52,594 nucleotides of DNA. Origin: Prevotella sp. GTDB taxonomy: Bacteria; Bacteroidota; Bacteroidia; Bacteroidales; Bacteroidaceae. This document shows positions 10,476 to 44,614 of this stretch, piece after piece (the first letter of the stretch is position 1; every line of letters begins with the position of its first letter). Made by a program: the position numbers and the translations under genes. The stretch lies in the NCBI GenBank assembly GCA_017447515.1, contig JAFSNG010000047.1, positions 1 to 52,594 on the forward strand. Direction: 5' to 3'. The notes under the pieces are model-generated. The model did not search any database and had not been told where the DNA came from. It was given only the letters and a program-made list of their open reading frames with translations.

Positions 10476-11288
10476 ATGCAGGCAGACAGTTTACAGCATT
10501 GGGTTGACCAACAGATGATACGCGGAAGGTACATCTTTACAAAGGAAGATGTGCTGGCGCAGGGGGTGTCGCAGACTGAGGAAAGTCTGAGGACGGCTTT
10601 GTCGAGGTTGGTCAAGAAGGGTATGATAGTCTCTCCCTGGCAGAATTTCTATGTAGCGGTGCCTACTGAGTATCGGTTGAGGGGCGAGGTGCCACCATCG
10701 TTCTATATAGACAGGTTGATGAAGCATCTGGGCAGGAATTATTATGTGTCTCTGCTGTCGGCAGCTGCGCTGAATGGTGCAGGGCATCAGCGGGCTATGG
10801 TGTTTCAAGTGACTGTCAATGGTGCGCCTATCCGTTCCGGAATCAAGAACGGTGTGAGGCTTGATTTCACGCTTCGCAATCCACTTCCGATGATGTACGT
10901 GAATCAGGTGAAGACGCAGATGGGATTCATGAATGTTTCGTCGCCAGAGTTGACGGCACTCGACTTGGTGCTTAATGAGGAGAAGGTAGGCGGACTGAGC
11001 CGTGTGGCAGAGGTGTTGATGGAATTGGTGGAGGACATGCATTTCGACGAATCCAAGACGGAGCTACTTGCTTTCTTCAACGCACCTGTTATTCAGCGTT
11101 TGGGCTATCTACTCGATTTGATTGAAGAGCATGAACTAGCAGATTGTCTGCAGGTGCTGGCACAAAAGCAAGAAAAGCTGTTCAGAAAAATCCGTCTGAA
11201 GCAGTCGAGACCCCAAACAGACGAGATGGCAATTGACAGCAGATGGAAGGTGATCGTCAACCAAGAAATAGAGACTGACGAAATATGA
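10476..11288 (+). CDS. Type IV toxin-antitoxin system AbiEi-family antitoxin
   Basis: 270 residues. The N-terminal winged-helix region (IFTKEDVLAQ...LRTALSRLVKKGMIVSPWQNFYVAVP) and the following domain match AbiEi antitoxins, which bind their own promoter and neutralise AbiEii. The stop overlaps the toxin start by four bases (ATGA), the typical antitoxin-first order. In other bacteria AbiE gives abortive-infection defence against phage. Symbols are left blank because no species-level name can be assigned. Confidence 0.88.
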   Translation: MQADSLQHWVDQQMIRGRYIFTKEDVLAQGVSQTEESLRTALSRLVKKGMIVSPWQNFYVAVPTEYRLRGEVPPSFYIDRLMKHLGRNYYVSLLSAAALNGAGHQRAMVFQVTVNGAPIRSGIKNGVRLDFTLRNPLPMMYVNQVKTQMGFMNVSSPELTALDLVLNEEKVGGLSRVAEVLMELVEDMHFDESKTELLAFFNAPVIQRLGYLLDLIEEHELADCLQVLAQKQEKLFRKIRLKQSRPQTDEMAIDSRWKVIVNQEIETDEI

Positions 11289-12088
11289 TACCAGCATATT
11301 TTATCCAAGAATGGAAGGAGAAGGCTCCTTGGACTGAACCTTATATGGTGGAGCAAGACCTCATTATCTGCCGTGCGCTGATAAGTATCTTCAGCGATGA
11401 GTTTCTGGCCTCGCAACTGGCATTTCGTGGTGGCACGGCCCTGCATAAGCTCTACTTGTCGCCGCAACCCCGATATAGTGAGGACATCGACTTGGTGCAG
11501 ATTAATCCTGGTCCTATCAAGCCTATCATGTATCGACTGGGAGAAGTGCTCAGTTGGTTGCCCGACAGAGTGACCAAGCAAAAGCGATACAATAATACGA
11601 TGCTGTTCAGGGCGGAATCGGAAATCGCTCCAGTGGTGCAGATACGCCTGAAGGTGGAGATCAACTGCTTCGAGCATTTCAACGTACTAGGTCTGAAGAA
11701 GGTCCCTTTCAGCATGGAGAACTCATGGTTTACAGGCACAGCAGAATTGACAACCTATCACCTCGAAGAGTTGCTTGGCACTAAACTGCGTGCGCTGTAT
11801 CAGCGAAAGAAGGGGCGCGACTTGTTTGACCTTCATTGTGCGCTGACCCAGCATGAAGTGGATGTAGATAAGGTGATGCTATGCTACAAGAAGTATATGG
11901 AGTTTGTGGTAGATAAAGCTCCGTCGTACAAGCAGTTTGTGAATAATATGGAGGAGAAGATGCAAGACCCAGAGTTCTTGGAAGACACAATGATGCTTCT
12001 CCGTTCGGAGATAAAATTTTCGCCTGCAGAAGCCTATCCGCTAGTTTATAAGATGTTTATTGATAGGATGGAAGGAAAGCGAGATTAG
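11285..12088 (+). CDS. AbiEii-family nucleotidyltransferase toxin
   Basis: 267 residues. Nucleotidyltransferase motifs are intact: FRGGTALHKLYL (Gly49-Gly50, Lys55) and RYSEDIDLV with Asp67 and Asp69, followed by a conserved KKGRDLFDLH segment near 180. AbiEii proteins are nucleotidyltransferases that block growth when the antitoxin is lost; the MenT relatives act on tRNA. The start overlaps the antitoxin stop. A 31-codon ORF begins on the base after the stop. Confidence 0.88.
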   Translation: MIPAYFIQEWKEKAPWTEPYMVEQDLIICRALISIFSDEFLASQLAFRGGTALHKLYLSPQPRYSEDIDLVQINPGPIKPIMYRLGEVLSWLPDRVTKQKRYNNTMLFRAESEIAPVVQIRLKVEINCFEHFNVLGLKKVPFSMENSWFTGTAELTTYHLEELLGTKLRALYQRKKGRDLFDLHCALTQHEVDVDKVMLCYKKYMEFVVDKAPSYKQFVNNMEEKMQDPEFLEDTMMLLRSEIKFSPAEAYPLVYKMFIDRMEGKRD

Positions 12089-14075: not shown

Positions 14076-17000
14076 ATGAAAAAAAGTGACTACAACTTGC
14101 GAGGGTGGCCGTGGATGATTCTTACGGTGCTCTTTGTTTGGCTGCTGCCCCAGCGGGCGGCGGCGACCGCGTATTTGGAGGATGCGGACAACTACACTGT
14201 GATGTTGGGCGGCTCTAACATTGTGCGTTTCTCGGCACCGGTCTATGACAAGAAAGGTCTGGACCAGTGGATTACCGACGGTAACCTGAAGGTGACGGTG
14301 GACGGCACGACAAACACCGTCTTCCACTGGGAAGTGGCTGAAACGGACATCAGCGACTCCCGCACATGGGTGAATTGCAAGTTCAGCACCACCGCCGACG
14401 GATTCTTCGACATCTCGTCGTATGGTACTAGCACTCCGTCGAGGGTGTCAAAGAGCAGTTCCAAAACCATCGCCGTGAACGGCAGTGGCGACCAATTCTA
14501 TTTCGAGGCCGAGTGGGTTGTGCCCTACAACCTGCTGGGCAAGGAGGTGAAGTTCAGCTGGTATGTGAAGCGCGACGGCAACGGTTACGATAATATTGAG
14601 GTGAAAGGCCTCAAGGAAGAAACCCTGAAGATACCGGAGGCCAGCGCGAAGCTGAAGCCGTTCCTTTCGTCACCCATGATCTCCGCCACGGCCCCGGGCA
14701 AGCTGGAAGTGCCCTGGGTTTTGGCTTCGGACAAAATCGTCAGCGCTTACTACGAGTACGACGATGTTTGGGGCAAGCACCATAAGGAGAACATCAATAA
14801 CATCAGCGGCGGCATCATCGAACTGGATGCCAACGTGCCTCACCACAACTTCCGTCTTGTCTGCAGTTACAAGGAGACTGGCGACAAGGGCGAATATCTG
14901 ATTGAGGGTGTATCGACTGCGACGCAGGATATGCCGCTGATTCACGCCCCCGTCGGCCTGACCGCCCGTCCTCTGGGCGACAGGAAGGCGAAGGTGGAGG
15001 TGACGTGGAGCGTGCCCTATCTGGAGGATGACGACCTGACGCCGACAGACTTCTTCGAGGTTCAGCGCTCGCTGACTGGCAAGGAGGAGGACTTCGTCAC
15101 CATCAATCAGGTGTTCTTCGCCAAGACCGAAAAGAAAGGCACCTATTCCTTTATCGACAGCACGCTGGTGGATGACGTCACTACCGCCATGCTGAAGGAC
15201 GGCGGCACGCTGGACAACCTGACCTACCGCGTGCGCCGCACCGTCGCCCAGGACTGGGGATGGGATCACAACTGCGCCACCAGCACCAAGTGCGTGGTGG
15301 ACCGTCTGCACCTGTTGCGCATAGCCGACTACTCGGCCAAGTGGGAGGACGAGAAGGCCTACACTGTGCGTGTGTCGTGGAACTATGAGGACGAGCACAA
15401 TGCCGTGTGGGACGAGCGCGCCAAGATGGTGCTGCGCGTCATCTCGAAGAACCGTGACGGCGTGATGGTGGACAGTCTGATCTACAATCTGGAGGATGCC
15501 GACCGCGCCAAGCGCTACAAGATTGTGAACCTCACGCGCTCGTGCGTGTACTATGATGTAGATATGTATGTGGAGCGAGGCGAGTCGCCCATCAACTTCT
15601 TGGAACAGACGGAGGATTATTTCTTCCCCATCCGCAATGCTGGCGACTGGCACAAATTTGCCGTGATGATTAATGAGGCTCTCAACACGAAGGACATCAA
15701 CGCCCGCCTCTACGCCGACATCGAGACCGGCGAGCACGTGGGAGTTGACCCTGGTGCCTACTATCGTGGTGTGTTCGACGGTAACGGCCACACGGTGACC
15801 TTCACCAAAACAGGCTGGACGGACCAATACATGGCTCCCTTCCGCTATGTTGGCAACGCCACCATCAAGAACCTGCATGTGGCAGGAACTGTAAATACTA
15901 CCGGGCAATACGCGGGTGGACTGATAGCCTATATACTCAATGACAACAATGTCACTATAGAGAACTGTCGCTCGTCAATGACCATCAAAAGTACGAACTT
16001 TACCAATGGTGGCTTCATTTCCCGTTTAGGCGACAATGCCACAGTCGTGATAAGTAACAGCAAGTTCGATGGCGCTTTCGAGGGTGCTGAAAGTCACCAC
16101 AACGGCGGCTTCGTGGGCTATTGCCAGTCAAAGAGCAAAGCAACCATCGTAAACAGCCTTTTTGCACCCGACCATATCAGCACCAAACTCGATAAATGTC
16201 AAACATGGGCACGTGGTGGTGATGACATCACACTGTCGGTTGTGAACAGCTATGCCACCATATCGTATGATGAGGTTAAGACCACGATAATCGACGGCAA
16301 GTCCTTCATGGTGCTGTATAATAATGACGACTGGATGGCATTTAAGGAAGCCGTGAAGACCAATGACTACACCAACGCCATCTTGGCTAACGACTTTACG
16401 GTTTACCATTGTATTGCCTGGGATGGCGAGGGTACCTTCCGTGGTATCTTCGATGGCAACGGCCATACGCTGAATATGGACATCAATGCTGGTGATGCTT
16501 CCCCTGTTGGCCTGTTCAAAAATGCCTCAGACTATACCATCAAGAACCTGCACCTTACTGGTAGAATCATAGGCGGCCTACACACGGGTGGTCTCGTAGG
16601 TAATAGTACTGCCGCCAGTTCTGCAAACCGCAACCATATCAACAACTGTCGTGTATCGGCCACTGTAGAGAGTGTCGGCTGGTTAGCTGGCGGCTTCATC
16701 GGCCGTGGCAATTATGCTGACGTTTTGAACTGTCTGTTCGACGGTTACATAGGGTGCAATCAAGCAAAGACTGGTGGTCTTCAGTGGTGGGTAGGAGCTT
16801 TCTATGGTTTCCTTGATGGAGACTTAGCTTGCTGCGTACAGACATGTCTGGAGAAGGGCTCCTATAAAAGCGGTACTGAACATATTGCATTGAACATCAA
16901 ACCTTGGGGTTACTGGGGTAATGGAGCGAACGAATGGAACCGCGACAACTGGAGCTATAGCAACTTGGCTTATACCAAAGACGCAAACGCAGTAGCGATG

Positions 17001-20000
17001 GAAACTATGCTCAGTAATCTGGGTAGCAATTGGGAATTGATTGGCGGCAATGCTTATCCCAAGATGCCACAACGGCTCATCGAGCCTGACAATGGTATGT
17101 CGATGGACGAGATTAAGAAATATCTCACCACCGGTTGGGTGGAGGATGGCACCACCATCAATCCCCAGACCACGCAGGAGCCTTACAATGAGTACAGGAA
17201 CATCCCCAAGCCGACTTTGCCGGACTTCTACCACAAGAACACGGGTGAGATAGAGAAGACGCTGCTGACGACGACGCGCCAGAGCAGCGTGCTGCTGGCC
17301 TGGAACACCGACGGCAGACCCATCGACTACTTCAGGGTGCTGCGCCGCGTGCAGGGCGAGGGCGACGACAAGTGGGTGGAGATAGCCACCGACCTGGACC
17401 AGATGAGCTATGAGGACACCAGCGTGTCGCCACTGGCCACCTACGAATATAAGGTGCAGGCCGTGAACGACTGCGAGGGCATCACCACTACCGAGACTGA
17501 GGTGAAGGTGGGCGAGTGTAAGCACACCGGCCGCCTGGAAGGCTACGTGCGCTTCAACGACGGCACGAGCGCTCCCGACGTCCATGTGTCCATCTACCAT
17601 GTGAAGGGCACGACGGAGACGCTTGTGAAGGATGTCATAACCGACGAGAGCGGCTACTTCGAGGCCGACGAACTGTCGTACTACGGCGAATCGTCAGCGC
17701 AATACAAGGTTGTGCCCGTCAGCGGCGACAACATCAAGTTCGAGGTGGACGACTACTTGGTGACCTTTAACGCCACGAGCAACGACGAGACGGTGCATGA
17801 GTTCATCATCACGAACGGCAAGCGCTTCTCGGGCTTCGTGATGTTCGACGGTACGAGCATCCCCGTGAAGGGTGCCAACTTCCTGGTGAACGGCCGCAAG
17901 ATGCACAACGCCAAGGGCGACGTGCTGGAGACCGACTACGACGGCAGCTTCTCGTTCCGCGTGAAGGAGGGCGACAACACCATCCAGGCTGTGATGGACG
18001 GTCACAAGTTCACCAACGAGGGCTGGTATAAGAACAGCAACGCGCAGAGCATCAAGAGCGACGTTGCCGGCATCTACTTCTACGACGCCACGAAGGTGAA
18101 GCTGATTGGCCGCATCGTGGGTGGCGACGACCAGGGCAACATGCCGCTGGACAACAACCTGTCGAAGAACAACCTGGGCGACTCGCTGACGATGGTGCTC
18201 ACTCTGGAGGGCGACAACACGTCGTGGCTGGTGTATGACAACCTGAACCCGAACAAGACGAAGCGCGAGGAGGTGGTGCACCACCAGCGCAACGGCGACA
18301 AGCACTATACGTCGGTGACCACCGAGCGCAAGCGCATGACCGTATGGCCCGACCCGACGACGGGTGAGTACGAACTGACGCTGCCGCCCGTGCGCTGGAA
18401 GGTGCAGCAGGTTTACTGTAAGGGCTATCCCACGCTGTTCCAGGAGGGACAGGTGAGCGAGGTGGTCGACCTGACCAACTGCCTGACGCTGAAGGACACC
18501 ACCTACGTGGGCAGCTACAAGGACATTGACTCGCTGACGGTGGTCACCGACCCCAAAGTCAGTTACAATGCCATCTATAACCGCATCTACCACAGTCCCG
18601 TGGAGGTGACCTACAAGCAGAAGGTCTATGACTCGTTCAGCTACTTCGGCGACAAAGAGTATGCTTGCAGCGAACTGACGGGCAAGACGACGCAGATTCC
18701 TCTGGCCTATCCGAATCCCAAGGACACGACGCAGGCCAAATACTCGTTCGAACACCCCGTGTTCAGCGTGGAGCGTAAGTACATCATCCAGCTGCAGGTG
18801 GCCGAGCGCTATCCGTACAACAACGACCCGTATGCCAAGAAGGTTGACCTGGTGCGCCTGAGCGGCGGCACCGCCTACATGCAGAACGGCATGAACGACG
18901 GAGCCCTCTTCAAGGAGCCCCAGCTGCTCGACAGCCTGGGCCAGGCCACGTTTACCGTGAAGGCCAACCAGACCACGACGCTGCTGACGGGGCTGAGCGC
19001 GCTGAAGACGGTGACCTTCACCGTGGAGCGCGACGGCACCTACTACGAGGCTGAGCCGCTGCGCGGCTACGTGCTCAATATGTTCCCCGTAGGCGCAAGC
19101 CAGGACATCCTGACCGACGGCCAGCCCATGCTGTTCGACATCCTTCGCGACCCGCCGGGCGGCTACAGCTCGAACACGCTCGCCAAGGGCACTACGCTGA
19201 ACTATACGTACATGATGAACCTGTCGCTGACAGCCGGTCTGTATATGAACTTTAAGACAGGTGAGAAACTGGAAACCGTGTCTGCAACGGTGGTAGCACC
19301 GTCAGGTGCAGGTACTGCCGTCGGACCTATCAGCGGGTCTGACATGGTTGACACCACGATTGACGCGTTGATGTACAATGCGCAAGGCTCTAAGGCCTTC
19401 TCCTATACGATGGTCGTGGGCAACAACGTCAGCACGAGCGGCGACCCGTCGATGGTTGGCGCCGATGCCGACCTCTATATCGGCAGCGTGCAGAACGTGG
19501 TGGTGACTCCGATGTCCACCATCCGTGCCGTGACCAAGAAGATGTACTACGAGATGATAGCCCGCCAGGGCTTGGGTGTCATGCCGTCGGAAGTGGCCAA
19601 GTGGGACACTTACGGCACGGTGGTGAAGATAGCCGGAGGCGTTGACGAGAAGGGCGACTCCGTCTTCCTGATTCGTGACGTGGCCCTGGGCTACGGTCCG
19701 AAGATTCAGTCGAACTTCATCTACTCGCAGAAGCAGCTGCTGACGCAGATTATCCCTGCCAAGGCGAAGGAGATTGTTGACATGATGTACCTCGGCACGA
19801 AGGACGAAGCACAGACGATAGCCGACAAGACCGGACAACCCGTCTATCTGTCGCTGCGCCTGCCTACCGACTCGCTGTTTGCTGTGGTGAACAGACCGAT
19901 ATTGGGTAGGAAAGATCTCACCACCTTAAACGACAGTATCGACGTGGCCGGTGATGGCATCAACTACCTCATGGTGCTGCCCAGTGGCAAGCCAAGGACT

Positions 20001-23000
20001 GACTTCAGCGACGAAGTGTCCCAGAAGTACTATGTCATCAAGGCTTGGGCGGACATGATAGCCCGTAACGAGCATGAGAAGCTGAGTGCCAACGACCTGC
20101 TGACGAACTACGACGTGGCCGGTGCTGCGGGTGTGAACTACAGCGAGACCTTCGACACCAACTACTCGAACTCGTTCACGCACCATTTCCCCGTCGCCAC
20201 AGAGGTTGACTACTTCGGTCTCGGCGCCGGTGTGAGCAATGCCGCTTCGGCAGTGAGCATAGGTGCCTCGATTGCAAGTGCCATTGCAATCTCATTAAAA
20301 GAAATGAAGAAATGGACAACCCCGAGTGCGGAACTGGCGCTTATAGATGATGAAAACGGCATGAAGTCGGAGGTGACCTTCGCCGGCAAGCTGTTCAAGT
20401 GGACGGTATTCCCCATCATCTCATACACGACGATTGGTACCAACTCTCAGACAAAGGCCTACAACCGCACGGAGAGCTTCACCATTGCCCTCGACCCGTA
20501 CAGCCATCTGAGCGTGGATGTCTATCGCGCAAAGCTTATCCAATCCTCAAGCGGCCAGACCGTGACAGCCTCCAACATCTTCACGAACGACAACTTCTTC
20601 ACGTATTACAATGATGTGTATGAGCAAGTGAAGAAAGACCTGAAGGCCGATGGCATTGACGGTCCGCGCAGCTTCATCTTCCGCACCCGCGGCGGTTCTA
20701 CGCAGAACCCGTGGGAGGACCAGCGCGTGACGACGTTGTACCGTCCGGGCGCAGAACTCGATGCCCGCACGCTGAAGATTGTGAACCCGAAGATCCGCCT
20801 CGACAAGCAGAGCGTGAGCGGCGTGTCTGTCAACGATCCTGCCGTCTTCACCATCTATGTGTCGAACGAGAGCGAGAAGTCTGAGGCCACCGAGGGCCTG
20901 ACCGTCCTGCAGCTGTTTGCCGTCGACCAGATGAATCCGCTGGGTGCGAGGATCAGCGTCAACGGACAGGTGCTGACCACCGGCGGCATGAGCGTGACGA
21001 CGGTGCCGGGCTCAGAGACGGCACTGACCATGGAGGTGCGTGCCGGCCAGGGCTTCGACTTCGAGAACCTGACCATCGGCGTGATGTCGCCCACCGATCC
21101 CGAGCATACTTTCGCGCTGGCTACGTTCAACGTACACTTCCTGCGTGAGGCCGGCGGCGTGAACATTGCCACACCGGGCGACAAGTGGGTGCTGAACACC
21201 AACGCGCAGATGGACTCTAAGCGCGGCTGGTACATCCCCGTGACTATCAACGGCTTCGACCGCCACCAGTACAACTTCGACCACATTGAGTTCCAGTACA
21301 AGGAATCGCAGCGTGGCGACGACTCGTGGACGAATCTCTGCTCGTTCTACGCCAGCGACTCGCTGATGGCTAACGCCAACGGCGTGAGGGAGCTGATTCC
21401 CGAGAACGGCAATATCGTGACCCAGTTCTACGGTGAAGGCTGGGTGATGGAGCGTGAGTACGACCTGCGCGCCGTGCTGTTCTGCCGCAACGGCAGTGAC
21501 TTCCTCACTACGCCGTCGAAGATAATCACCGGCATCAAGGACACGCGCCGTCCGCAACTGTTCGGCACACCCGAACCGAAGAGCGGACTGCTGACGCAGA
21601 ACGACGATATCATCTTCAACTTCTCTGAAGACATCGAACACAACTACCTGAGCGCCATCACCAACTTCGAGGTGAAGGGCGAGGTGAACAACAATAATCT
21701 CTCTGAAATGGTGAGCGTGCAGTTCACGGGCAATTCCAGTGTCGAGAGTGAGGCCAAGCGCAACTTCAGCGGCAAGGACCTGACCATCGACATGATGGTG
21801 AAGCCTGCCGAGACGGGACGCGAAATGCCGCTGTTCTCGCACGGCACGAACGGCCAGAAGCTGCAGCTGTGGCTGACCGCGGACTTCCATCTGAAGGCAG
21901 TGGTCAACGACCAGGTGTTCACGAGCGACTCCGTTATCGGTAAGAACGCCTTCCGCCAGGTGGCTATGACCATCAGTCAGGCGGACAGCACGCTGACGTT
22001 CTACAAGGGCGGCGTGCAGATAGGCAGTCACAAACTGACGTCGCTGTACACCGGCACGGGTACACTGATCTTCGGACGCACCAACGAGAACGACCGCTCG
22101 ACGAGCCAGTTCTACGAGGGTCGCATGATGGAGGCTCGCCTGTGGTATAGCGCCATGGACGGCGGACTCATCGGCACGACCTACGGCGGCCGCCGACTGA
22201 CGGGCTACGAGAAGAACCTCGTGGACTACTACCCGATGAGCGAAGGCTCAGGCGACTATGCCATCGACCACACGCAGGGTGCCAACGCCATGCTAATAGG
22301 TGCCAACTGGGCTATCCCGCGCGGCCTGTCGCTGCACGTGGAGAAAGCGGACAAGGGTGTGCTGCTGGACAAGAACGCCATGAACCGCACTGCCGAGCAT
22401 GACTACACGCTGATGTTCTGGTTCAAGACCGATGCCGACGGACGCGGCGCGCTGCTGAGCAACGGACGCGGACTGAAGGAGGATGTCGGCGGCGAGAACC
22501 TGTTCCACATCGGATTCGAGGGCGACAAACTGATGTACCGCTCGAACGGCTATGCCGTAGAGGTTCCCGGCAACTGGAGCGACGGCAACTGGCACAACTA
22601 CGCCATGACGGTGAACCGTGCCTACAACGTGGCCAATATTTACATGGATAAGGAACTCGTTACGACGTTCGAAAGCGACAGCCTCGGCGGCATCAGCGGC
22701 GGCTATCCGCTCATCGGTGCCACCCGCTACGACGTGGTGAAGGAGAATGGCGACGTGGAGGTGAAGGACGGCGACGACGCCCTGAAGGGTAACGTGGACG
22801 AACTGCTGTTCTTTGCACAGGCACTGCCGCAGCAGCTCATCAAGACCTACACCACGAAGAGCCCGAACGGCGACGAGGCCGGTCTGCTGACCTACCTGTC
22901 GTTCGACCGTCAGGAGCGCCAGAAGGACAACAGCATCGAACTGGTGGCCTACGCCTACAGCAAGAAGCTCTATCTGGACGACAATGGTCAGCCGCGCTAC

Positions 23001-25025
23001 CAGCTCGACCCGCTGACGAAGGAGCCCACCGACATACTGGTGCGTGACTACCTGTTCGCGGACAGCATCGACGTGGTGATGAAGTACTTCGACGCTACGC
23101 AGGCTGCTCCCGTACTTCCTTACGAGGAGGTGACGAACCTGAAGTTCGCCTTCGTGGGCAAGGATAACCAGCTGTTGGTAGAACTCAACGAGCCTGCTGC
23201 CAAGATGCACCGCCGCAACATCTACGTCACCGTGCGCGACGTGGAGGACAAGAACGGCAACACGATGGCTTCGCCGCAGACGGCCAGCTTCCTGGTGAAC
23301 AACAGCAGCATTGAGTGGCTGTTGAACAAGGTGGACTGCGTTGTGAAGTACGGCGCTGGCGAAACGCTCGATCTGGCGTTCTACAACTACAGCTCTGCCG
23401 CCCATACATACACCATCGAGAACTGCCCGAGCTGGCTCACGCTCGGGAAGTACACCGACGTGCTGGCACCGCAGACGCTGGATGGCATCACGGCCATGGT
23501 CAGCAAGGACCTGAACATCGGTACGTATAATGAAATCATCTATCTGACCGACGAAGAGGGTATCACCGAGCCGCTCTACCTAAACCTGACGGTAGAAGGC
23601 GACGTGCCTGACTGGGCTCAGAGCATTGACAGCAATCTGCTGAAGAACTCGATGAGCATCATCGGACAGGTCTATCTGTATGATCAGCTGGACACCGATG
23701 CACGCGACATCGTGGGTGTCTTCGACAACGAGAACGTATGTCACGGCTTTGCCAACATCACTCATTCGGCACAGACTGGTGAGACTGGCCTGTACCTGAC
23801 CGTTTACGACAACGAGGCCAAGGGCCGTCAGCTGAACTTCCGTCTGTGGCAGTACAGCACGGGCCGCGAACTGATGCTGATTACCGACTCGACCCTTACG
23901 TTCGAGAAGTCGGCCGTATTAGGCGCTGACAAGCCTGTACGATTCGACGGCGGCGACACCTTCGTCCAGAACTTCAAACTGCAGGAAGGCTGGAACTGGG
24001 TATCGTTCAACGTCAGCAGCAAGCAGCTTGACAAGGTGTACTCACTGCTGAACACGCTGCCGTTGCAGAATGGCGACGTCATCACTGACCTCAGCAGCGA
24101 CCTGACGATGACCTATGCCGATGGTAAGTGGCTGTCGACAGACAACCCGGACTCCATCGTCGTCTCGTCGAAGAACTCGTATGCCATCAAGGTGCAGAAG
24201 GCTTGCGTCATCCCCATTGGCGGTACAGTCATCAAGGATCAGGAAGAGCGTACTATTGACTTGAAGCAAGGCTGGAACGGCATCGGCTACACGCCGGTTG
24301 CCAACCTGAGCGTGGAGACCGCCCTGAGCGACTACTTCGACCATGCACAGTCGGGCGACGTCGTGAAGAGCCAGACGGAGTTTGCCTACTTCAGCAAGTC
24401 GGGCAATACTGGACGCTGGCAGGGTAGCCTGAAGTACATGAAGCCCGGCGAGGGATATATGATGCTGCGCAACGGCGAGGGCAAAGCCTCGTTCACCTAT
24501 CCGTTCTACGAGCCCAGCAACTCGTTCCTGAACGGACTGGCTGCTGCACCGCACCGTGCAGGTGGCGACGAAGGTGGCGTCAAGAACTACCGCTACACCA
24601 TGTGCGTCTCCGCTGTGGTTGAAGGCTTCAACATCGAGGAGGGCGACCGTCTGGTGGCCTACGCTGAAGGCGAGGTTTGCGGTATCGCTGAGGTCAACGA
24701 GGAAGCCGTTGAAGGCACTGAGCCGCTGTACCTGACTATCGGTGGCGATAAGCAGACGGGTATCTCCTTCGGCATTGAGCGCAACGGCATAACCGCTGTT
24801 GTGACCGGCGAGCTGATGACCTTCAACGCCAACGCCATCGTGGGTAGCCCCGACGAACCGTTCGTCATCGACTTCACTGGTGCAACAGGTATCGACGTTG
24901 TTTCCGGCGGCTACGAGCATGGCAAGTGGTACACTGTCAATGGCGTGCAGCTGCAGGAGAAGCCCACTCGTCCCGGCCTGTACATTTATAATGGTAAGAA
25001 GGTCGTGATTAAAAAAGAGAAGTGA
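14076..25025 (+). CDS. Giant secreted multidomain protein (FnIII-like, GLUG, LamG, BACON-like, T9SS tail)
   Basis: A 3,649-residue surface or secreted protein. Visible parts, with rough residues: signal peptide 1-31; FnIII-like 291-395; two homologous GLUG-type blocks 520-900 (FDGNGHT ... KNLHVAG ... GGFI); FnIII-like 1044-1147; carboxypeptidase-regulatory-like 1149-1312; a Gly/Ala-rich hydrophobic helix 2047-2079; Ig-like about 2485-2545; LamG-like 2555-2715 and 2758-2945; BACON-like 3072-3180; a module shared with the next gene at 3182-3291 and 3504-3604; GWNWVSFNV-type repeats 3303-3478; and a T9SS-type tail from 3618 (WYTVNGVQL...GLYIYNGKKVVIK). No catalytic motif was found. Adhesion or glycan binding is likely, but the function is unknown. 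The long central region (1312-2480) is unassigned. Confidence 0.85.
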   Translation: MKKSDYNLRGWPWMILTVLFVWLLPQRAAATAYLEDADNYTVMLGGSNIVRFSAPVYDKKGLDQWITDGNLKVTVDGTTNTVFHWEVAETDISDSRTWVNCKFSTTADGFFDISSYGTSTPSRVSKSSSKTIAVNGSGDQFYFEAEWVVPYNLLGKEVKFSWYVKRDGNGYDNIEVKGLKEETLKIPEASAKLKPFLSSPMISATAPGKLEVPWVLASDKIVSAYYEYDDVWGKHHKENINNISGGIIELDANVPHHNFRLVCSYKETGDKGEYLIEGVSTATQDMPLIHAPVGLTARPLGDRKAKVEVTWSVPYLEDDDLTPTDFFEVQRSLTGKEEDFVTINQVFFAKTEKKGTYSFIDSTLVDDVTTAMLKDGGTLDNLTYRVRRTVAQDWGWDHNCATSTKCVVDRLHLLRIADYSAKWEDEKAYTVRVSWNYEDEHNAVWDERAKMVLRVISKNRDGVMVDSLIYNLEDADRAKRYKIVNLTRSCVYYDVDMYVERGESPINFLEQTEDYFFPIRNAGDWHKFAVMINEALNTKDINARLYADIETGEHVGVDPGAYYRGVFDGNGHTVTFTKTGWTDQYMAPFRYVGNATIKNLHVAGTVNTTGQYAGGLIAYILNDNNVTIENCRSSMTIKSTNFTNGGFISRLGDNATVVISNSKFDGAFEGAESHHNGGFVGYCQSKSKATIVNSLFAPDHISTKLDKCQTWARGGDDITLSVVNSYATISYDEVKTTIIDGKSFMVLYNNDDWMAFKEAVKTNDYTNAILANDFTVYHCIAWDGEGTFRGIFDGNGHTLNMDINAGDASPVGLFKNASDYTIKNLHLTGRIIGGLHTGGLVGNSTAASSANRNHINNCRVSATVESVGWLAGGFIGRGNYADVLNCLFDGYIGCNQAKTGGLQWWVGAFYGFLDGDLACCVQTCLEKGSYKSGTEHIALNIKPWGYWGNGANEWNRDNWSYSNLAYTKDANAVAMETMLSNLGSNWELIGGNAYPKMPQRLIEPDNGMSMDEIKKYLTTGWVEDGTTINPQTTQEPYNEYRNIPKPTLPDFYHKNTGEIEKTLLTTTRQSSVLLAWNTDGRPIDYFRVLRRVQGEGDDKWVEIATDLDQMSYEDTSVSPLATYEYKVQAVNDCEGITTTETEVKVGECKHTGRLEGYVRFNDGTSAPDVHVSIYHVKGTTETLVKDVITDESGYFEADELSYYGESSAQYKVVPVSGDNIKFEVDDYLVTFNATSNDETVHEFIITNGKRFSGFVMFDGTSIPVKGANFLVNGRKMHNAKGDVLETDYDGSFSFRVKEGDNTIQAVMDGHKFTNEGWYKNSNAQSIKSDVAGIYFYDATKVKLIGRIVGGDDQGNMPLDNNLSKNNLGDSLTMVLTLEGDNTSWLVYDNLNPNKTKREEVVHHQRNGDKHYTSVTTERKRMTVWPDPTTGEYELTLPPVRWKVQQVYCKGYPTLFQEGQVSEVVDLTNCLTLKDTTYVGSYKDIDSLTVVTDPKVSYNAIYNRIYHSPVEVTYKQKVYDSFSYFGDKEYACSELTGKTTQIPLAYPNPKDTTQAKYSFEHPVFSVERKYIIQLQVAERYPYNNDPYAKKVDLVRLSGGTAYMQNGMNDGALFKEPQLLDSLGQATFTVKANQTTTLLTGLSALKTVTFTVERDGTYYEAEPLRGYVLNMFPVGASQDILTDGQPMLFDILRDPPGGYSSNTLAKGTTLNYTYMMNLSLTAGLYMNFKTGEKLETVSATVVAPSGAGTAVGPISGSDMVDTTIDALMYNAQGSKAFSYTMVVGNNVSTSGDPSMVGADADLYIGSVQNVVVTPMSTIRAVTKKMYYEMIARQGLGVMPSEVAKWDTYGTVVKIAGGVDEKGDSVFLIRDVALGYGPKIQSNFIYSQKQLLTQIIPAKAKEIVDMMYLGTKDEAQTIADKTGQPVYLSLRLPTDSLFAVVNRPILGRKDLTTLNDSIDVAGDGINYLMVLPSGKPRTDFSDEVSQKYYVIKAWADMIARNEHEKLSANDLLTNYDVAGAAGVNYSETFDTNYSNSFTHHFPVATEVDYFGLGAGVSNAASAVSIGASIASAIAISLKEMKKWTTPSAELALIDDENGMKSEVTFAGKLFKWTVFPIISYTTIGTNSQTKAYNRTESFTIALDPYSHLSVDVYRAKLIQSSSGQTVTASNIFTNDNFFTYYNDVYEQVKKDLKADGIDGPRSFIFRTRGGSTQNPWEDQRVTTLYRPGAELDARTLKIVNPKIRLDKQSVSGVSVNDPAVFTIYVSNESEKSEATEGLTVLQLFAVDQMNPLGARISVNGQVLTTGGMSVTTVPGSETALTMEVRAGQGFDFENLTIGVMSPTDPEHTFALATFNVHFLREAGGVNIATPGDKWVLNTNAQMDSKRGWYIPVTINGFDRHQYNFDHIEFQYKESQRGDDSWTNLCSFYASDSLMANANGVRELIPENGNIVTQFYGEGWVMEREYDLRAVLFCRNGSDFLTTPSKIITGIKDTRRPQLFGTPEPKSGLLTQNDDIIFNFSEDIEHNYLSAITNFEVKGEVNNNNLSEMVSVQFTGNSSVESEAKRNFSGKDLTIDMMVKPAETGREMPLFSHGTNGQKLQLWLTADFHLKAVVNDQVFTSDSVIGKNAFRQVAMTISQADSTLTFYKGGVQIGSHKLTSLYTGTGTLIFGRTNENDRSTSQFYEGRMMEARLWYSAMDGGLIGTTYGGRRLTGYEKNLVDYYPMSEGSGDYAIDHTQGANAMLIGANWAIPRGLSLHVEKADKGVLLDKNAMNRTAEHDYTLMFWFKTDADGRGALLSNGRGLKEDVGGENLFHIGFEGDKLMYRSNGYAVEVPGNWSDGNWHNYAMTVNRAYNVANIYMDKELVTTFESDSLGGISGGYPLIGATRYDVVKENGDVEVKDGDDALKGNVDELLFFAQALPQQLIKTYTTKSPNGDEAGLLTYLSFDRQERQKDNSIELVAYAYSKKLYLDDNGQPRYQLDPLTKEPTDILVRDYLFADSIDVVMKYFDATQAAPVLPYEEVTNLKFAFVGKDNQLLVELNEPAAKMHRRNIYVTVRDVEDKNGNTMASPQTASFLVNNSSIEWLLNKVDCVVKYGAGETLDLAFYNYSSAAHTYTIENCPSWLTLGKYTDVLAPQTLDGITAMVSKDLNIGTYNEIIYLTDEEGITEPLYLNLTVEGDVPDWAQSIDSNLLKNSMSIIGQVYLYDQLDTDARDIVGVFDNENVCHGFANITHSAQTGETGLYLTVYDNEAKGRQLNFRLWQYSTGRELMLITDSTLTFEKSAVLGADKPVRFDGGDTFVQNFKLQEGWNWVSFNVSSKQLDKVYSLLNTLPLQNGDVITDLSSDLTMTYADGKWLSTDNPDSIVVSSKNSYAIKVQKACVIPIGGTVIKDQEERTIDLKQGWNGIGYTPVANLSVETALSDYFDHAQSGDVVKSQTEFAYFSKSGNTGRWQGSLKYMKPGEGYMMLRNGEGKASFTYPFYEPSNSFLNGLAAAPHRAGGDEGGVKNYRYTMCVSAVVEGFNIEEGDRLVAYAEGEVCGIAEVNEEAVEGTEPLYLTIGGDKQTGISFGIERNGITAVVTGELMTFNANAIVGSPDEPFVIDFTGATGIDVVSGGYEHGKWYTVNGVQLQEKPTRPGLYIYNGKKVVIKKEK

Positions 25026-25041
25026 TAAAGAATAAAACGAA

Positions 25042-25974
25042 ATGAATATGAAACTGAAATCATTTATATTGGCAATGGTGTTTGCAGCAGCGCAGTCTGC
25101 TGCTGCATACACCTCAACTCCTGTCACCGAAACCCCTGACTGGAAGGTGGACTGGAGCTACAACCAGGAGCGACCCGACTGGCAGGCTCCCAACGCCTCT
25201 GACTACGCCAGCTTCACCGTGATGCTGATCAAGATTGAGGAAGTCCTGCAGCCCTACGCCTCTACCGACGACCTGCTGGCTATCTTCGTCGGCGACGAGC
25301 TGCGCGGACTGGCCAGCCCCGCCTATGTGGTGGGCAGCGAAAACGAACCCATCAGCTTCGTGCTGAAAGCGTTCACCAACGAGTCCAGTGGCGACACTAT
25401 GGACGTCACGCTGAAGTACTATTGCGCCAAGGCGAGCCAGATATTCAGCCTCTCGACCTCCATCGTCTTCGACAGCGAGACCATCGGCGTTGAAGAGGAA
25501 TTCGTCCCCAAGTTCTCAGAGGGTTCACCCAAATATCCCGTGGTGACGACCATTGACCCTGCCGACCTACTCGCCCAGGCAGGCATCACGCCCGCCGATG
25601 GCGACCAGGTGGCCGTGTTTGTGGGCGACGAGTGCCGCGGCGTGCTGACGCTCCCATTGGAAGAGGGAGAGCTGCTCGACGTCTACCTGCGTGAGGAAGG
25701 CGAGGAGATTACCTTGATGTACTACGACAGCACCAACCAGCGCATCCTGACCCTTGCCGAGGGTGGGGAAGAAGTCTTCATGAAAGGCGATGCCAACGGT
25801 GACGGCGTGGTGGACGTGAGCGACTACATCGCCATTGCCAACTACATCCTTGGCGACATCCCCGAAGGCTTCAAAGAGAAGGCTGCCGACGTGAACGACG
25901 ACGGCATCATCGACGTGAGCGACTACATCGGCGTGGCGAACATCATCCTCTACGGGAATATCAATGGCAAGTAA
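25042..25974 (+). CDS. Secreted protein with C-terminal type I dockerin-like repeats
   Basis: 310 residues with a signal peptide (to about ...AAAYT). Two copies of a module (DDLLAIFVGDELRG near 75; GDQVAVFVGDECRG near 190) resemble segments at the C terminus of the giant protein upstream. Residues 250-308 form a dockerin-like pair: DANGDGVVDVSDYIAIANYI and DVNDDGIIDVSDYIGVANII, each with the D-x-[ND]-x-[DN]-G calcium loop and an F-helix. Dockerins bind cohesins, and the next gene encodes cohesin-like repeats. It starts 16 bases after the giant gene, so the genes are probably co-transcribed. There is no T9SS tail. Confidence 0.83.
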   Translation: MNMKLKSFILAMVFAAAQSAAAYTSTPVTETPDWKVDWSYNQERPDWQAPNASDYASFTVMLIKIEEVLQPYASTDDLLAIFVGDELRGLASPAYVVGSENEPISFVLKAFTNESSGDTMDVTLKYYCAKASQIFSLSTSIVFDSETIGVEEEFVPKFSEGSPKYPVVTTIDPADLLAQAGITPADGDQVAVFVGDECRGVLTLPLEEGELLDVYLREEGEEITLMYYDSTNQRILTLAEGGEEVFMKGDANGDGVVDVSDYIAIANYILGDIPEGFKEKAADVNDDGIIDVSDYIGVANIILYGNINGK

Positions 25975-26016
25975 GGCTGCGGTGCAGCATCTATGATCAA
26001 TTCATTTCATACGACA

Positions 26017-27153
26017 ATGAGAAAGATTTTATTACTGTTTGTGATGCTCTGCCTGGCACAGACTGCAGTGAAGGCCGACACCGACCTGACAGCCTACGAC
26101 AATGTGATATTCGTGTCTCCGGCCACTGTCGGTCAGAAGAGTGGCAATGAGGTGACACTCACCATCTGCATGAACAATACGGCCCCGATTCGCGGCTTCC
26201 AGTTCGACCTGTACCTCCCCGACGGCATGACTGCCGTGAAGACGGAGAATGGCAAGATAATGGCATCGCTGAACTCGGATCGTCTGCCTCAGGGTGACGA
26301 CCATACGCTGTCCGTGGCTGAGCAGGCTGACGGCTCCATCCGCTTCCTCTGCGGCTCGCCGTACAATGAGACCTTCACCGGCATGTGGGGCTCGATAGCC
26401 ACCATCAGGGTGAACTTCAAAGGGATGGCCAAAGGCTGGTACCCCCTCAGACTGAAAGCCATCAAACTTACCGAGAGCGACATCAGCAGGTTCTACGAGG
26501 TGGATGAGGTTGTCACCAGGTTCACCGTCCTCGCTGACGCTGGCACTGGCAGCACCGACATATCGGCCTACGACAACGTCATCTTTGTGTCTCCGGCCTT
26601 CGTAGACCAGACCAAGAGCGGTAATGAGGTGACGCTCGACATCTGCATGAACAATACGGCCCCGATTCGCGGCTTCCAGTTCGACCTGTACCTCCCCGAA
26701 GGCATGACTGCCGTGAAGACATCGAACGACAAGTTTGTGACATCGCTGAATGCAGCCCGCTTGCCTGTGGGCGACGGCCATACGCTGACGGTGGCTGAGC
26801 AGGCTGACGGCGCACTGCGCTTCCTCTGCGGCTCGCCGTACAATGAGACCTTCACCGACATGTCAGGTATGATAGCCACCCTCCTGGTGAACATCGAGGG
26901 GCTGGTCTATGGCGAGTACCCCATGACGCTGAAAGCCATCAAACTCAGCGAGAGCGACATCAGCAAGTTCTACGAGGTCTCCGAGATTGTCACCAAGTTC
27001 ACCGTTGGCTATAACACGACGGACATCAGCGACAATCAACGTGAAACGATAACCCATCATCAATGGTACACGCTCGACGGCCGCCTGCTCAACGGCAAGC
27101 CCACCGCAAAAGGAGTGTATATTGTGAATGGTAAGGCTGTCGTGATTAAGTGA
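26017..27153 (+). CDS. Secreted protein with two cohesin-like repeats and T9SS tail
   Basis: About 378 residues. The start MRKILLLFVMLCLAQTAVKA is a clean signal peptide, so ATG 26017 is preferred over 25993. Two repeats of about 155 residues follow, each with GNEVTL.ICMNNTAPIRGFQF, then LYLP(D/E)GMTAVK, a DG(S/A)(I/L)RFLCGSPYNE strand and an IAT..VN..G strand. This order of strands resembles cohesin domains (inference from pattern, not from a search). The end WYTLDGRLL...GVYIVNGKAVVIK is a T9SS-type tail. Thus it may be the surface anchor to which the dockerin protein binds. Confidence 0.75.
   Translation: MRKILLLFVMLCLAQTAVKADTDLTAYDNVIFVSPATVGQKSGNEVTLTICMNNTAPIRGFQFDLYLPDGMTAVKTENGKIMASLNSDRLPQGDDHTLSVAEQADGSIRFLCGSPYNETFTGMWGSIATIRVNFKGMAKGWYPLRLKAIKLTESDISRFYEVDEVVTRFTVLADAGTGSTDISAYDNVIFVSPAFVDQTKSGNEVTLDICMNNTAPIRGFQFDLYLPEGMTAVKTSNDKFVTSLNAARLPVGDGHTLTVAEQADGALRFLCGSPYNETFTDMSGMIATLLVNIEGLVYGEYPMTLKAIKLSESDISKFYEVSEIVTKFTVGYNTTDISDNQRETITHHQWYTLDGRLLNGKPTAKGVYIVNGKAVVIK
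26164..26719 (+). repeat. Near-identical DNA segments in the two cohesin-like repeats
   Basis: Bases 26164-26222 and 26641-26699 (offset 477) are identical over 59 bases, including synonymous sites, and identity resumes after one mismatch for about 20 more. A second block, encoding RFLCGSPYNETFT, is also nearly identical. The rest of the repeats has diverged. Confidence 0.8.
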
Positions 27154-28470: not shown

Positions 28471-30087
28471 TTATTCGCTGCAACAGTAGGGCCAGTGTTG
28501 TTGGCGGTAGATGGTGGTGAGGGACGGCAGGCGGCGAAGGAAGCCGGCATAATCCTTTTGCGTCGGACTGGCCCACTGTACCTCGGCGAGGGCAGCGGCG
28601 CGGGGCAGCATTTGGTAGAGCAGCAGCTGTCGCCACGGGATGTACTCCGTCCAGATGTTCGCCTGTACACCGATGATATGTTGGCGTGTGGTCTCGTCGA
28701 GTTCCTCGGGCAGGGGTTCGTAGCTGTAGATTTTCTCCAAAGGCACATAGCCGCCAATGAGCAGGGGTTTGTTCCAGGTCTTTTCCTCGTCGGTCTGGTA
28801 GTAGTCGAAATAGCAATAGGCCGTGGGTGCCATGATGACGTCGTGGCCCTCTTTGGCCGCCTTGATGCCGTGTTCTATTCCGCGCCAGCAGAGCACGGTG
28901 GCACTCTGGCTGATGTCGCCTTCCATGATTTCATCCCAACCTATGATGCTGCGGCCCTTCGCATTGATATATTGTTCCATGCGGTTGGTGAAGTAGCCTT
29001 GCAGCTTGGCTTCTGCGCTCAGTTTACCACTGGCCTTGATGCCCTGTTCGCGGATGCGCTGCTGGCATTTCGGACACTGTTCCCAACGTTTCTTCGGAGC
29101 CTCGTCGCCTCCGATGTTGATATATTTGGAGGGGAAGATGTCTACGAGTTCGTCGACGACGCCACAGAGCAGGTCGAACACCTTGTCGTTGCCAGCGCAG
29201 AGGATGTCGTCGAAGATACCCCACGTCGGCTCCACCTCGTAGGGTCCGCCCGTGCAGCCTAACTCAGGATAGGCGGCGAGGATGGCCAGTGCATGTCCGG
29301 GAAGTTCCACTTCGGGAATGACGGTGATGCAGCGTTCTGCCGCATAGCGCACCACTTCGCGCAGCTGTTCCTGCGTGTAATAGCCTCCATGAGGCGTGTC
29401 GTCGAAGAGCCCTGTATTGCGACCGATGACGGTATGGCGACGCTGCGAACCTATCTCGTGCAGCCGCGGATATCGCTTGCTCTCCATGCGCCATCCCTGG
29501 TCGTCGGTGAGGTGCCAGTGGAAGGTGTTCATGTTGTGCAGCGCGAGGATGTCGATATACTCCTTTACCTGTTCCACCGTGAAGAAATGGCGGCACACGT
29601 CGAGGTGCATGGCGCGATAGGCAAAGCGTGGCGCGTCGTTGATCACTGCCGCGGGCAGCGAGATGGGTGAATGGGTTATGGTTTTCCTCAGCGTTTGCAC
29701 ACCGTAGAAAACACCGCGTGGACTGCCGCCAGCGACGGTGATGCTCCGCTTACGGCCGTCGACGGTCAGGCGGTAAGCCTCTACGCCCAGTTCCGAAACC
29801 GTCACGAGGCGGATGCTCTTGCCTTTCTTGGGCACCTGTGCGACGACAGGCAGGCGCAAACCGCTGGCCTGTTCCACATACGTCTGAAGAAACTCGGCAT
29901 TGCGACGCATCTGTGCATCGTCGCTGCCACACACAATCACACACGAGCCGTCAACGACGAACGGTTCACCACCCGTCAGCCTGACATCTTTCACTGCGGG
30001 TACTACTTGGTAAACACTGTCCGCATCCGCTGCAAAAGCTGTACTGACAAGCCCCAGAAACAAGTAAAGGAACATCATTTTTCTCAT
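28471..30087 (-). CDS. Beta-N-acetylhexosaminidase (GH20)
   Basis: 538 residues: signal peptide (MRKMMFLYLFLGLVSTAFAA), a GH20b-type N-terminal domain (about 25-150) and the catalytic TIM barrel from about 155. The catalytic pair Asp328-Glu329 is in INIGGDEAPKKRW; HNMNTFHWHLTDDQGWR and IPEVELPGHA are further family blocks. It should release terminal GlcNAc or GalNAc from glycans in the periplasm or at the surface. It stands alone with its own promoter. The PIG-L-type deacetylase gene about 1.1 kb away might act on GlcNAc products. Confidence 0.93.
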   Translation of the reverse strand: MRKMMFLYLFLGLVSTAFAADADSVYQVVPAVKDVRLTGGEPFVVDGSCVIVCGSDDAQMRRNAEFLQTYVEQASGLRLPVVAQVPKKGKSIRLVTVSELGVEAYRLTVDGRKRSITVAGGSPRGVFYGVQTLRKTITHSPISLPAAVINDAPRFAYRAMHLDVCRHFFTVEQVKEYIDILALHNMNTFHWHLTDDQGWRMESKRYPRLHEIGSQRRHTVIGRNTGLFDDTPHGGYYTQEQLREVVRYAAERCITVIPEVELPGHALAILAAYPELGCTGGPYEVEPTWGIFDDILCAGNDKVFDLLCGVVDELVDIFPSKYINIGGDEAPKKRWEQCPKCQQRIREQGIKASGKLSAEAKLQGYFTNRMEQYINAKGRSIIGWDEIMEGDISQSATVLCWRGIEHGIKAAKEGHDVIMAPTAYCYFDYYQTDEEKTWNKPLLIGGYVPLEKIYSYEPLPEELDETTRQHIIGVQANIWTEYIPWRQLLLYQMLPRAAALAEVQWASPTQKDYAGFLRRLPSLTTIYRQQHWPYCCSE

Positions 30088-33420: not shown

Positions 33421-34467
33421 ATGATGAAAAAGGTAATATTCATAGCCATTGGCTGTTGGCTGTTAGCTGTCAGCTGCAGTGAGAAGAAGGAGCAGAACGA
33501 TAAGGCTCCGACGAGAGTGAAAACACAGGTGGTATCGCCTGGCATGTTGGATAATGCCCAGACGTATGTGGGCATCGTGGAGGAGCGCGAGGCGACGGCG
33601 GTGAGCTTTACGGGCATGGGTGTGGTAAAACGCATGTTGGTAAATGAAGGTCAGGCCGTCAGCAAAGGTCAGCTGATAGCTGAGATGGACGACACGCAGG
33701 CCCGCAATCTGCTGAGTGGTGCTGAGGCCCAGATGACGCAGGCCAACGACGCATTGGCGCGCTACAAGATGCTACACGACAACGGCTCGCTGCCCGAGGT
33801 GCAGTGGGTGGAGATCCAGAGCAAGGTGGCACAGGCGAAGTCGCAGTTGGAGGTAGCACGGAAGAATCTGGCCGACTGTAGGCTGACGGCTCCAGTCGGT
33901 GGTATCATAGGCAAGAAACTGATTGGCACAGGTGAGACAGCCCTGCCGTCACAGGCTGTTGTAAGCATCCTTGACATCTCAACGGTAAAGGTGAAAGTGG
34001 CTGTTCCTGAGGCGGAGATTGGTGGACTCAATGCCACTACGCCAACAAGTATTTCGGTAGAGGCCATCAATGGCAGTTATCAGGGAGGTAGGATTGAGAA
34101 GGGCGTACAGGCTGATGCGCTCACGCACACGTACGATATAAGAATCAATGTGGCAAACGGCGATCGGAAGTTGTTGCCAGGCATGGTAGCCAGTGTTCGT
34201 TTTATCTCAGAGGGGTCTCAGGCCATTGGCAGCAAGATGGTGCCTGTGACGGCCGTGCAGAAGACGACGGTGAGTACCAGTCGTCAGTCGGACGGCACGC
34301 TGTTTGTGTGGACGGTGGGCAAGGACAGCACGGCGCATCGCGCTACCGTGACGATTGGTCAGACACAGGGCAATTATGTAAGTGTCACCGACGGGCTGAG
34401 CATGGGTGACCGTATTGTCACAGAGGGTTATCAGAAACTGAGTGAAGGGAGTAAGGTGGTTTTCTGA
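33421..34467 (+). CDS. RND efflux periplasmic adaptor (membrane fusion lipoprotein)
   Basis: 348 residues. The lipoprotein signal peptide MMKKVIFIAIGCWLLAVSC has its lipobox at LAVSC. Then come a barrel-sandwich (lipoyl-like) half, VVKRMLVNEGQAVSKGQLIA, a coiled-coil hairpin (about 80-135), the second lipoyl half LTAPVGGIIGKKLIGTGETA, and a beta-barrel and proximal domain. It joins the inner-membrane pump to TolC. The hydrophobic core of the signal peptide (IGCWLLAV) is encoded by a heptamer repeat. First gene of the adaptor-pump-TolC operon. Confidence 0.93.
   Translation: MMKKVIFIAIGCWLLAVSCSEKKEQNDKAPTRVKTQVVSPGMLDNAQTYVGIVEEREATAVSFTGMGVVKRMLVNEGQAVSKGQLIAEMDDTQARNLLSGAEAQMTQANDALARYKMLHDNGSLPEVQWVEIQSKVAQAKSQLEVARKNLADCRLTAPVGGIIGKKLIGTGETALPSQAVVSILDISTVKVKVAVPEAEIGGLNATTPTSISVEAINGSYQGGRIEKGVQADALTHTYDIRINVANGDRKLLPGMVASVRFISEGSQAIGSKMVPVTAVQKTTVSTSRQSDGTLFVWTVGKDSTAHRATVTIGQTQGNYVSVTDGLSMGDRIVTEGYQKLSEGSKVVF
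33448..33475 (+). repeat. Degenerate heptamer repeat (GTTGGCT type) within a signal peptide
   Basis: ATTGGCT, GTTGGCT, GTTAGCT, GTCAGCT. The array encodes IGCWLLAVS, the core of the adaptor's lipoprotein signal peptide up to the lipobox cysteine. Confidence 0.75.
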
Positions 34468-34500
34468 TGTAAGATGGAAGAAGTAAGATGTAAGAAGTAT
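34466..34500 (+). repeat. Degenerate heptamer repeat (GATGTAA type) between adaptor and pump genes
   Basis: GATGTAA, GATGGAA, GAAGTAA, GATGTAA, GAAGTAT: five units that fill the whole gap. The adaptor's stop overlaps the first unit and the pump's ATG (34499-34501) overlaps the last. It thus also occupies the place of the ribosome binding region. Confidence 0.85.
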
Positions 34501-37540: not shown

Positions 37541-37542
37541 TT

Positions 37543-44571: not shown

Positions 44572-44614
44572 AATCGTATAATTTTTGTATTCTGCTTTAT
44601 TGGGAAATGGCAAG

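Follow-up and report, generated by a model that had tools for sequence, protein, structure and literature searches.

The window analyzed here, a stretch of 52,594 nucleotides from Prevotella sp. (contig JAFSNG010000047.1 of assembly GCA_017447515.1; C7 in our numbering), carries three adjacent genes for secreted proteins: a gene for a giant protein, gene A, which encodes a dockerin protein, and gene B, which encodes a protein with two cohesin-like repeats. Genes A and B probably constitute a noncellulosomal dockerin-cohesin pair in which the B protein is a surface anchor for the A protein. The computations detected dockerin and cohesin modules, a cohesin fold, a recurrent gene order of dockerin and then cohesin with a type IX secretion system (T9SS) tail, joint divergence of the two modules and their co-occurrence across genomes. 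We infer that the dockerin binds the cohesin in a calcium-dependent manner, that the pair is located on the cell surface and that A may contact the giant. The features of the pair are as follows.

25042..25974, + strand: gene A, secreted protein of 310 amino acids with an N-terminal region (D_N) and a C-terminal dockerin, without a T9SS tail (open reading frame, Pfam, D_N family)
25768..25971, + strand: dockerin module, residues 243-310 (Pfam, PDB dockerin sequence matches, helices in the model)
25789..25824, + strand: calcium loop 1, DANGDGVVDVSD, residues 250-261 (read from the sequence)
25888..25923, + strand: calcium loop 2, DVNDDGIIDVSD, residues 283-294 (read from the sequence)
25993..27153, + strand: gene B, secreted protein of 386 amino acids with a signal peptide, two cohesin domains and a short T9SS-type tail
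26074..26544, + strand: cohesin domain 1
26548..27021, + strand: cohesin domain 2, 75% identical to domain 1, not folded separately
27013..27150, + strand: short T9SS-type C-terminal tail of gene B (own-genome tail family, short C-terminal domain motifs of Prevotella intermedia)

The open reading frames at 14076-25025 (3649 amino acids), 25042-25974 (310 amino acids) and 25993-27153 (386 amino acids) were confirmed, all on the + strand and separated by gaps of 16 and 18 bases. This agrees exactly with an original prediction, made by a model from the letters alone, of three adjacent co-directional genes headed by a 3,649-residue giant. The same prediction had placed signal peptides on all three proteins; a Sec-type signal peptide was read at each N terminus, and a crude heuristic agreed for the two smaller proteins. 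Pfam Dockerin_1 (PF00404) matched residues 248-302 of the A protein with an E value of 3.3e-9 and 37.3 bits, above the curated cut-off of 22.9, and the usual calcium ligands were present in both predicted loops, identifying the module as a type I dockerin. In the genome of the window, a metagenome-assembled genome (MAG) of 1.92 Mb that is 61% complete, this was the one dockerin above the cut-off; two further matches were weak (E values of 0.11 and 0.25). Our own cohesin model, at an E value of 1e-4, found only the two cohesins of the window, and dockerin and cohesin are a one-to-one system in this incomplete assembly.

The two predicted repeats of the B protein were confirmed, each of ∼155 amino acids and with a mutual identity of 75%. 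Pfam Cohesin (PF00963) scored 20.0 bits with the whole protein and 13.8 bits with repeat 1, below its cut-off of 24.1, and of the two profile searches proposed only that with Dockerin_1 gave a match above the cut-off. Among the cohesins of 24 A/B pairs, 4 reached an E value of 5e-5, approximately the Pfam cut-off by our own conversion. A phmmer search of the PDB with the single window protein gave no match at an E value of 1; a profile of 22 relatives matched 5n5p (E value of 1e-5). In structure comparisons, the predicted model of a gene B repeat had the fold of a cohesin, with the Clostridium perfringens cohesin-like structures 2vo8, 2w1n and 2jh2 among the best matches; the original prediction had named an unrelated fold as the result that would speak against it, and the model did not give one. 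When the dockerin and the first repeat were folded as a joined chain, the predicted template modeling score (pTM) was 0.83, compared with the ∼0.60 that we roughly estimate for two unrelated domains, a difference that may reflect the proposed interface.

The tail of gene B is likely to be a T9SS sorting tail. A profile of the 46-residue tail, built from 10 sequences, matched 36 places in the genome of the window at an E value of 0.01. Thirty of these were read as loci, and in 29 of them the match stops no more than 5 residues short of a stop codon, with two loci (L260 and L270) showing the same tail. SprA is encoded in the same genome (SprA_N, E value of 5.8e-215). The short C-terminal domains (CTDs) described for T9SS cargo of P. 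intermedia have 43 to 55 residues, a T/GI cleavage site, conserved glycines, a GxYI motif and a basic end, as given in the part of the source available (PMC11969387). In a by-eye comparison, the gene B tail agreed with this class in being an extreme C-terminal tail of ∼45 residues that shows these motifs and belongs to a T9SS-encoding genome. The T9SS tail of the original prediction is supported by an own-genome tail family ending near stop codons and by SprA, but not by the curated models considered below.

In order to examine the recurrence of the gene order, a sample was drawn with Pfam Dockerin_1 from 150 genomes of the genus, so as not to select for cohesins. Forty loci were hand-picked from the top of the list, with at most 2 per genome, from 26 genomes; one locus (L201) yielded no dockerin open reading frame, and 39 contributed. 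These held 55 dockerin proteins, 48 of which end in the dockerin, and the absence of a T9SS-type tail from such proteins is nearly true by definition. Dropping edge genes reduced the dockerin-terminal genes from 48 to 47 and the two sets of controls from 142 to 108 and from 25 to 23. A cohesin gene lay next downstream of 17 of the 47 dockerin-terminal genes, 12 times with a T9SS-type tail, compared with 2 of 108 control genes of the same loci with neither dockerin nor tail (P = 1.5e-8, with rows that are not independent, as several loci contribute multiple dockerin genes). For control genes with a tail and without a dockerin, the count was 1 of 23. An upstream cohesin gene was seen in 5 of 39 cases, once with a tail. 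The median gap between A and B was 34 bases in the 24 pairs.

Pfam analysis of nine A proteins from relatives detected LRR, InlB-like, Big_2 or Ig-like domains in some and an M6 peptidase with cleaved adhesin in one, whereas others had no known domain; no glycoside hydrolase was among them. A C10 peptidase with a Spi inhibitor domain (L093:3323-6025) ends in a dockerin, and some dockerin proteins are therefore proteases. The A/B pair with a T9SS-type tail is repeated in a genome of another family of the order (G409, L237). In several other loci of such families, the gene directly after that of a large protein, which has a dockerin inside and a sorting-like C-terminal end, encodes one cohesin or several, the same order with different tails (L239, L240, L241, L243, L244, L245, L248 and L249). 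The 13 other-family loci (L237-L249) were chosen from cohesin matches, often on contigs that also carry a dockerin, and are given as examples only.

A cohesin alignment search of the named genomes yielded 57 loci, among which two main forms were recognized, a single chain (X-Coh-Doc-Coh, where Coh is cohesin and Doc is dockerin) and the split A/B form. The single-chain form comprised 32 Coh-Doc-Coh proteins, mostly with a T9SS-type tail. In the split form (8 loci), gene A lacks a tail and has Coh-Doc at its end; the next gene, B, encodes a signal peptide, a cohesin, ∼190 residues and a tail, and is shortened in L164. In L162, three X-Coh-Doc genes precede one cohesin-tail gene. The fused chain is the product expected from joining the split pair, a classical hint that the two proteins may be in contact.

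In the 32 Coh-Doc-Coh proteins, no linker separates the first cohesin from the dockerin (the borders of the two modules touch in 4 proteins and overlap by 3 to 5 residues in 28), and dockerins also occur without a neighboring cohesin. These features would suit modules that act within one protein or as spacers, the cohesin-like sandwich packing on the neighboring dockerin with no bond between proteins. We consider this quite unlikely. In 10 of the 24 pairs, that of the window among them, no cohesin stands directly before the dockerin of gene A, and the partner must therefore be elsewhere. Furthermore, a cohesin gene is far more frequent next downstream of dockerin-terminal genes than of control genes, and the divergence shared by dockerin and cohesin lies between separate proteins.

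This joint divergence was examined by comparing distance matrices of the dockerin and the first cohesin of B. The pair set leaves out L064, L065 and L069-L083, which duplicate named records, and L140, L164 and L185, in which no T9SS-type tail was seen. The correlation over the 24 pairs was 0.88 (permutation P = 2e-4), with pairs that are not fully independent, L158 and L159 being nearly alike. It was 0.84 in 12 DY/DF-type pairs, 0.82 in the 12 others and 0.81 in 12 dockerin-selected pairs. Sixteen pairs have an extra domain in B; the dockerin-cohesin correlation in these was 0.93, and that between the dockerin and the extra domain was 0.13 (P = 0.14), although the extra domain shares the protein of the cohesin. 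Dockerins with a DASLxLQ helix pair with one cohesin type (L202, L223, L235 and L236) and those with a DYIGVAN helix with another, and one genome (G033) holds a pair of each type, L064 (DYIGVAN) and L223 (DASLILQY).

Dockerin, stop codon, signal peptide and cohesin could instead form a recombination cassette, the joint divergence being linkage and the function lying elsewhere; the sandwich might, for example, bind carbohydrate or matrix. In favor of this, dockerin and cohesin lie side by side, the domain after the cohesin in B has a separate history, as expected at the border of a cassette, and beta sandwiches like that of the cohesin are a generic fold. We nevertheless regard this explanation as very unlikely. 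Binding between dockerin and cohesin would itself best account for a cassette that keeps the two together, and the pTM of the joined chain and the distribution of the modules among genomes also speak against the cassette explanation.

In the 150 genomes of the genus, the dockerin was detected in 75 (E value of 1e-5), the Pfam cohesin in 52 at an E value of 0.01 and in 35 above the cut-off, and our own cohesin model in 78 (E value of 1e-4). Dockerin and own-model cohesin were present together in 71 genomes, with 4 genomes having the dockerin only and 7 the cohesin only (P = 6e-29); that is, cohesins were found in 71 of 75 dockerin genomes versus 7 of 75 dockerin-less genomes. Of the 30 dockerin genomes without a Pfam cohesin (E value of 0.01), 26 have one by the own model. 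Among 247 genomes of the order, 19 had a cohesin (E value of 1e-6), and 17 of these had a dockerin (E value of 1e-5). Four genomes of the genus (G072, G049, G063 and G116) had large dockerin repertoires, with at least 40 matches each (202 first-look candidates in G072) and 8 to 22 cohesins each by the own model, for which up to 25 matches per genome were scored.

Several observations weigh against a bound dockerin-cohesin pair with B as the anchor. No cohesin gene lies next downstream of 30 of the 47 dockerin-terminal genes of the sample, and three D_N-dockerin proteins (L066, L067 and L089) have no cohesin neighbor. In the order, 39 of 56 dockerin genomes are without a cohesin by the own model, and co-occurrence within one genus partly reflects phylogeny. 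Joint transfer of dockerin and cohesin, which lie ∼100 bases apart, as one DNA block could explain part of the joint divergence. The natural Coh-Doc-Coh chain of L160, folded to ask which cohesin the dockerin prefers, had a pTM of 0.64, which lies between our own expectations of 0.54 for one docked cohesin and 0.81 for both and favors neither. The curated T9SS tail models (NCBIfam TIGR04183 and Pfam PF18962) did not match the tail of the window gene B, and among ten B proteins only that of L235 matched (E value of 0.019, and 0.13 with Pfam), below both cut-offs.

The giant upstream of the pair has the following features.

14076..25025, + strand: giant secreted protein of 3649 amino acids with a signal peptide, LamG and a short T9SS-type tail (open reading frame, Pfam, tail family)
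21726..22157, + strand: best Laminin_G_3 stretch of the giant, residues 2551-2694 (Pfam PF13385)
24885..25022, + strand: short T9SS-type C-terminal tail of the giant (alignment, own-genome tail family)

LamG was present in two stretches above the Pfam cut-off (E value of 2.3e-23), and Fn3 and CarboxypepD_reg-like matches were weak and below the cut-offs. The Pfam T9SS tail model did not match the tail of the giant. The relationship of the giant to the pair was examined by searching the window D_N protein against 299 genomes of the genus and reading the best-scoring places. The window and the 53 best-scoring other places, less L104, which gave no D_N open reading frame, made up 53 loci. The C terminus of the giant was encoded 5' of D_N in 49 of these; of the other four loci, three were at contig ends and one (L134) had an opposite-strand gene. 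A dockerin was present in 6 of the 53 loci and absent from 47, and a cohesin gene was next in 3 of the 6 and in 0 of the 47 (P = 8.5e-4). The full trio was found in five genomes, those of the window, L140, L141 (G033), L142 and L185 (G121), the last four being ruminant MAGs labeled as Prevotella sp. (L140 and L185), Prevotellaceae (L141) and Bacteroidaceae (L142); by comparison with these, the window probably comes from a rumen Prevotella. In L140 and L185 the contig ends within gene B, the giant of L141 is split into two frames (L064), and the gene B open frame of L142 begins within the first cohesin.

These results upheld the conserved neighborhood of the original prediction as far as the five trios but not for the 47 loci without a dockerin. 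The proposed tie of dockerin and cohesin to the giant was not supported, the giant/D_N pair mostly occurring without either module, and the original interpretation as a whole is partly supported. Since most giant/D_N loci have no dockerin, while dockerin-cohesin pairs occur with many other partners, the pair looks like a portable attachment device that was added to the trio locus and is not a feature of the giant. In the window, gene B is followed by a gene for a hydrophobic 186-amino-acid protein; a homologue of this protein (75% identical) is encoded directly 3' of a dockerin-less D_N gene in G264 (L086), and the dockerin and cohesin gene therefore look like a single gain or loss at this locus.

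A complex of all three proteins on the surface, with the giant also contacting A, is compatible with anchoring of A by B; we lean only slightly against it. The position of the C terminus of the giant 5' of D_N at nearly all loci fits such a complex, as does L224, a distant analogue with the same order of a large protein (giant C-terminal and D_N matches), a small D_N-dockerin protein and a cohesin protein with a T9SS-type tail. The D_N model matches inside large proteins of three relatives, L197, L198 and this L224. A likeness of D_N to the C-terminal repeats of the giant had been suspected by eye but was not supported by a phmmer search in the window, which found no significant similarity. 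The D_N proteins without a dockerin, none of which has a cohesin neighbor, also argue against the three-protein complex.

Other partners were seen at the D_N loci. The third gene encodes a fimbrillin-like protein in 16 of 53 loci by an own-built profile, and Pfam Mfa_like_1 matched one of three such proteins tested. A single open frame of 620 amino acids joins D_N, dockerin and fimbrillin-like protein in L067 (1896-3758). In L130, L132, L133, L136 and L138 the fimbrillin-like third gene has an N-terminal dockerin-like half, without a cohesin neighbor in the stretch read, and L134 has a similar piece at a contig end.

Anchoring of A by B can be pictured as follows. Proteins A and B would both enter the periplasm via Sec. 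By its short T9SS tail, B would cross the outer membrane and become linked to the cell surface, and the calcium-loaded dockerin of A would plug into a cohesin of B. The tail-less A would thereby be held at the surface by B, beside the T9SS-tailed giant, which is a neighbor of A by gene order only, and with two cohesins one anchor could hold two A molecules. The roles of Sec, the T9SS and PorU-type attachment are those generally known for such systems. On a speculative extension that we think unlikely, the dockerin would act in trans as a portable tag for both export and attachment: an A protein with only a Sec signal would bind its T9SS-tailed cohesin partner while still in the periplasm and pass through the T9SS pore together with it, several Coh-Doc proteins with one cohesin-tail protein (three in L162) would form a chain on one anchor, and Prevotella genomes with dozens of dockerins would use orthogonal plug-socket codes for surface layout. 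Anchoring by B suggests a second route by which proteins without a T9SS tail may stay on the surface, and such pairs would be new orthogonal tools for displaying proteins on Gram-negative cells. It also turns the role of dockerins in rumen Bacteroidetes, left open so far, into a direct question of binding.

The statement of the original prediction that there is no enzyme gene holds for the trio, as Pfam detected no enzyme domain in the three proteins; a gene for a GH20 hexosaminidase (28471-30087, - strand) lies just downstream. Beyond it, Pfam identified a PIG-L deacetylase, an RND efflux operon (33421-38880), a Cthe_2159-type carbohydrate-binding protein (39778-41742) and GH3 (42262-44613), and an AbiEi/AbiEii type IV toxin-antitoxin pair (10476-12088) lies just 5' of the locus.

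Cohesin-like modules of secreted glycoside hydrolases of C. perfringens are noncellulosomal, like the gene B cohesins, but by their structure titles they sit on the enzymes themselves. Their partner proteins carry dockerins, and that system is not known to have a T9SS anchor. Cellulosomal anchoring scaffoldins and dockerin enzymes (Clostridium; ScaE of Ruminococcus flavefaciens) have the same end-of-protein calcium-loop dockerin and cohesin fold. A cellulosome, which is defined by dockerins on plant cell wall enzymes and by a multi-cohesin scaffoldin with a carbohydrate-binding module, was rejected for this locus in view of the lack of an enzyme domain in the trio and the mostly adhesin-like cargo of relatives. 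The trio further differs in that it belongs to a Gram-negative organism and uses a T9SS-type tail for anchoring, its cohesin is too divergent for Pfam and one anchor gene directly follows the dockerin gene. ScaE, like gene B, combines a cohesin with a cell-attachment signal and, in the part of the source available, is attached by sortase (PMC4081043).

A search of titles and abstract beginnings of open-license papers gave, among the matches listed, no description of a dockerin/T9SS-cohesin pair. Dockerins of rumen Prevotella are already recorded, and their role in polysaccharide loci was described as "not defined yet" (PMC7480376). A camel rumen study reported two Bacteroidetes bins with 11 dockerins and 0 cohesins, cohesins in certain Bacteroidetes, and bins with two to four tandem cohesins (PMC6071333). 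In the available portions of both papers, such data are Pfam or dbCAN domain counts read as possible cellulosomes, and the A/B gene pair, the T9SS tail and the cohesins missed by Pfam are not described (PMC7480376, PMC6071333). The short-CTD cargo of P. intermedia is like the gene B tail in length and motifs and, in the excerpt consulted, is without dockerin or cohesin, unlike the A/B pair (PMC11969387). For Ruminococcus albus, it was proposed that a cohesin holds individual dockerin proteins at the cell surface instead of forming part of a large scaffold; the cargo there is enzymes, and a separate anchor gene per cargo is not described in the part of the paper available (PMC6118326). This single cohesin of R. 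albus is, among those partly available accounts, the nearest idea to the anchoring of A by B (PMC6118326).

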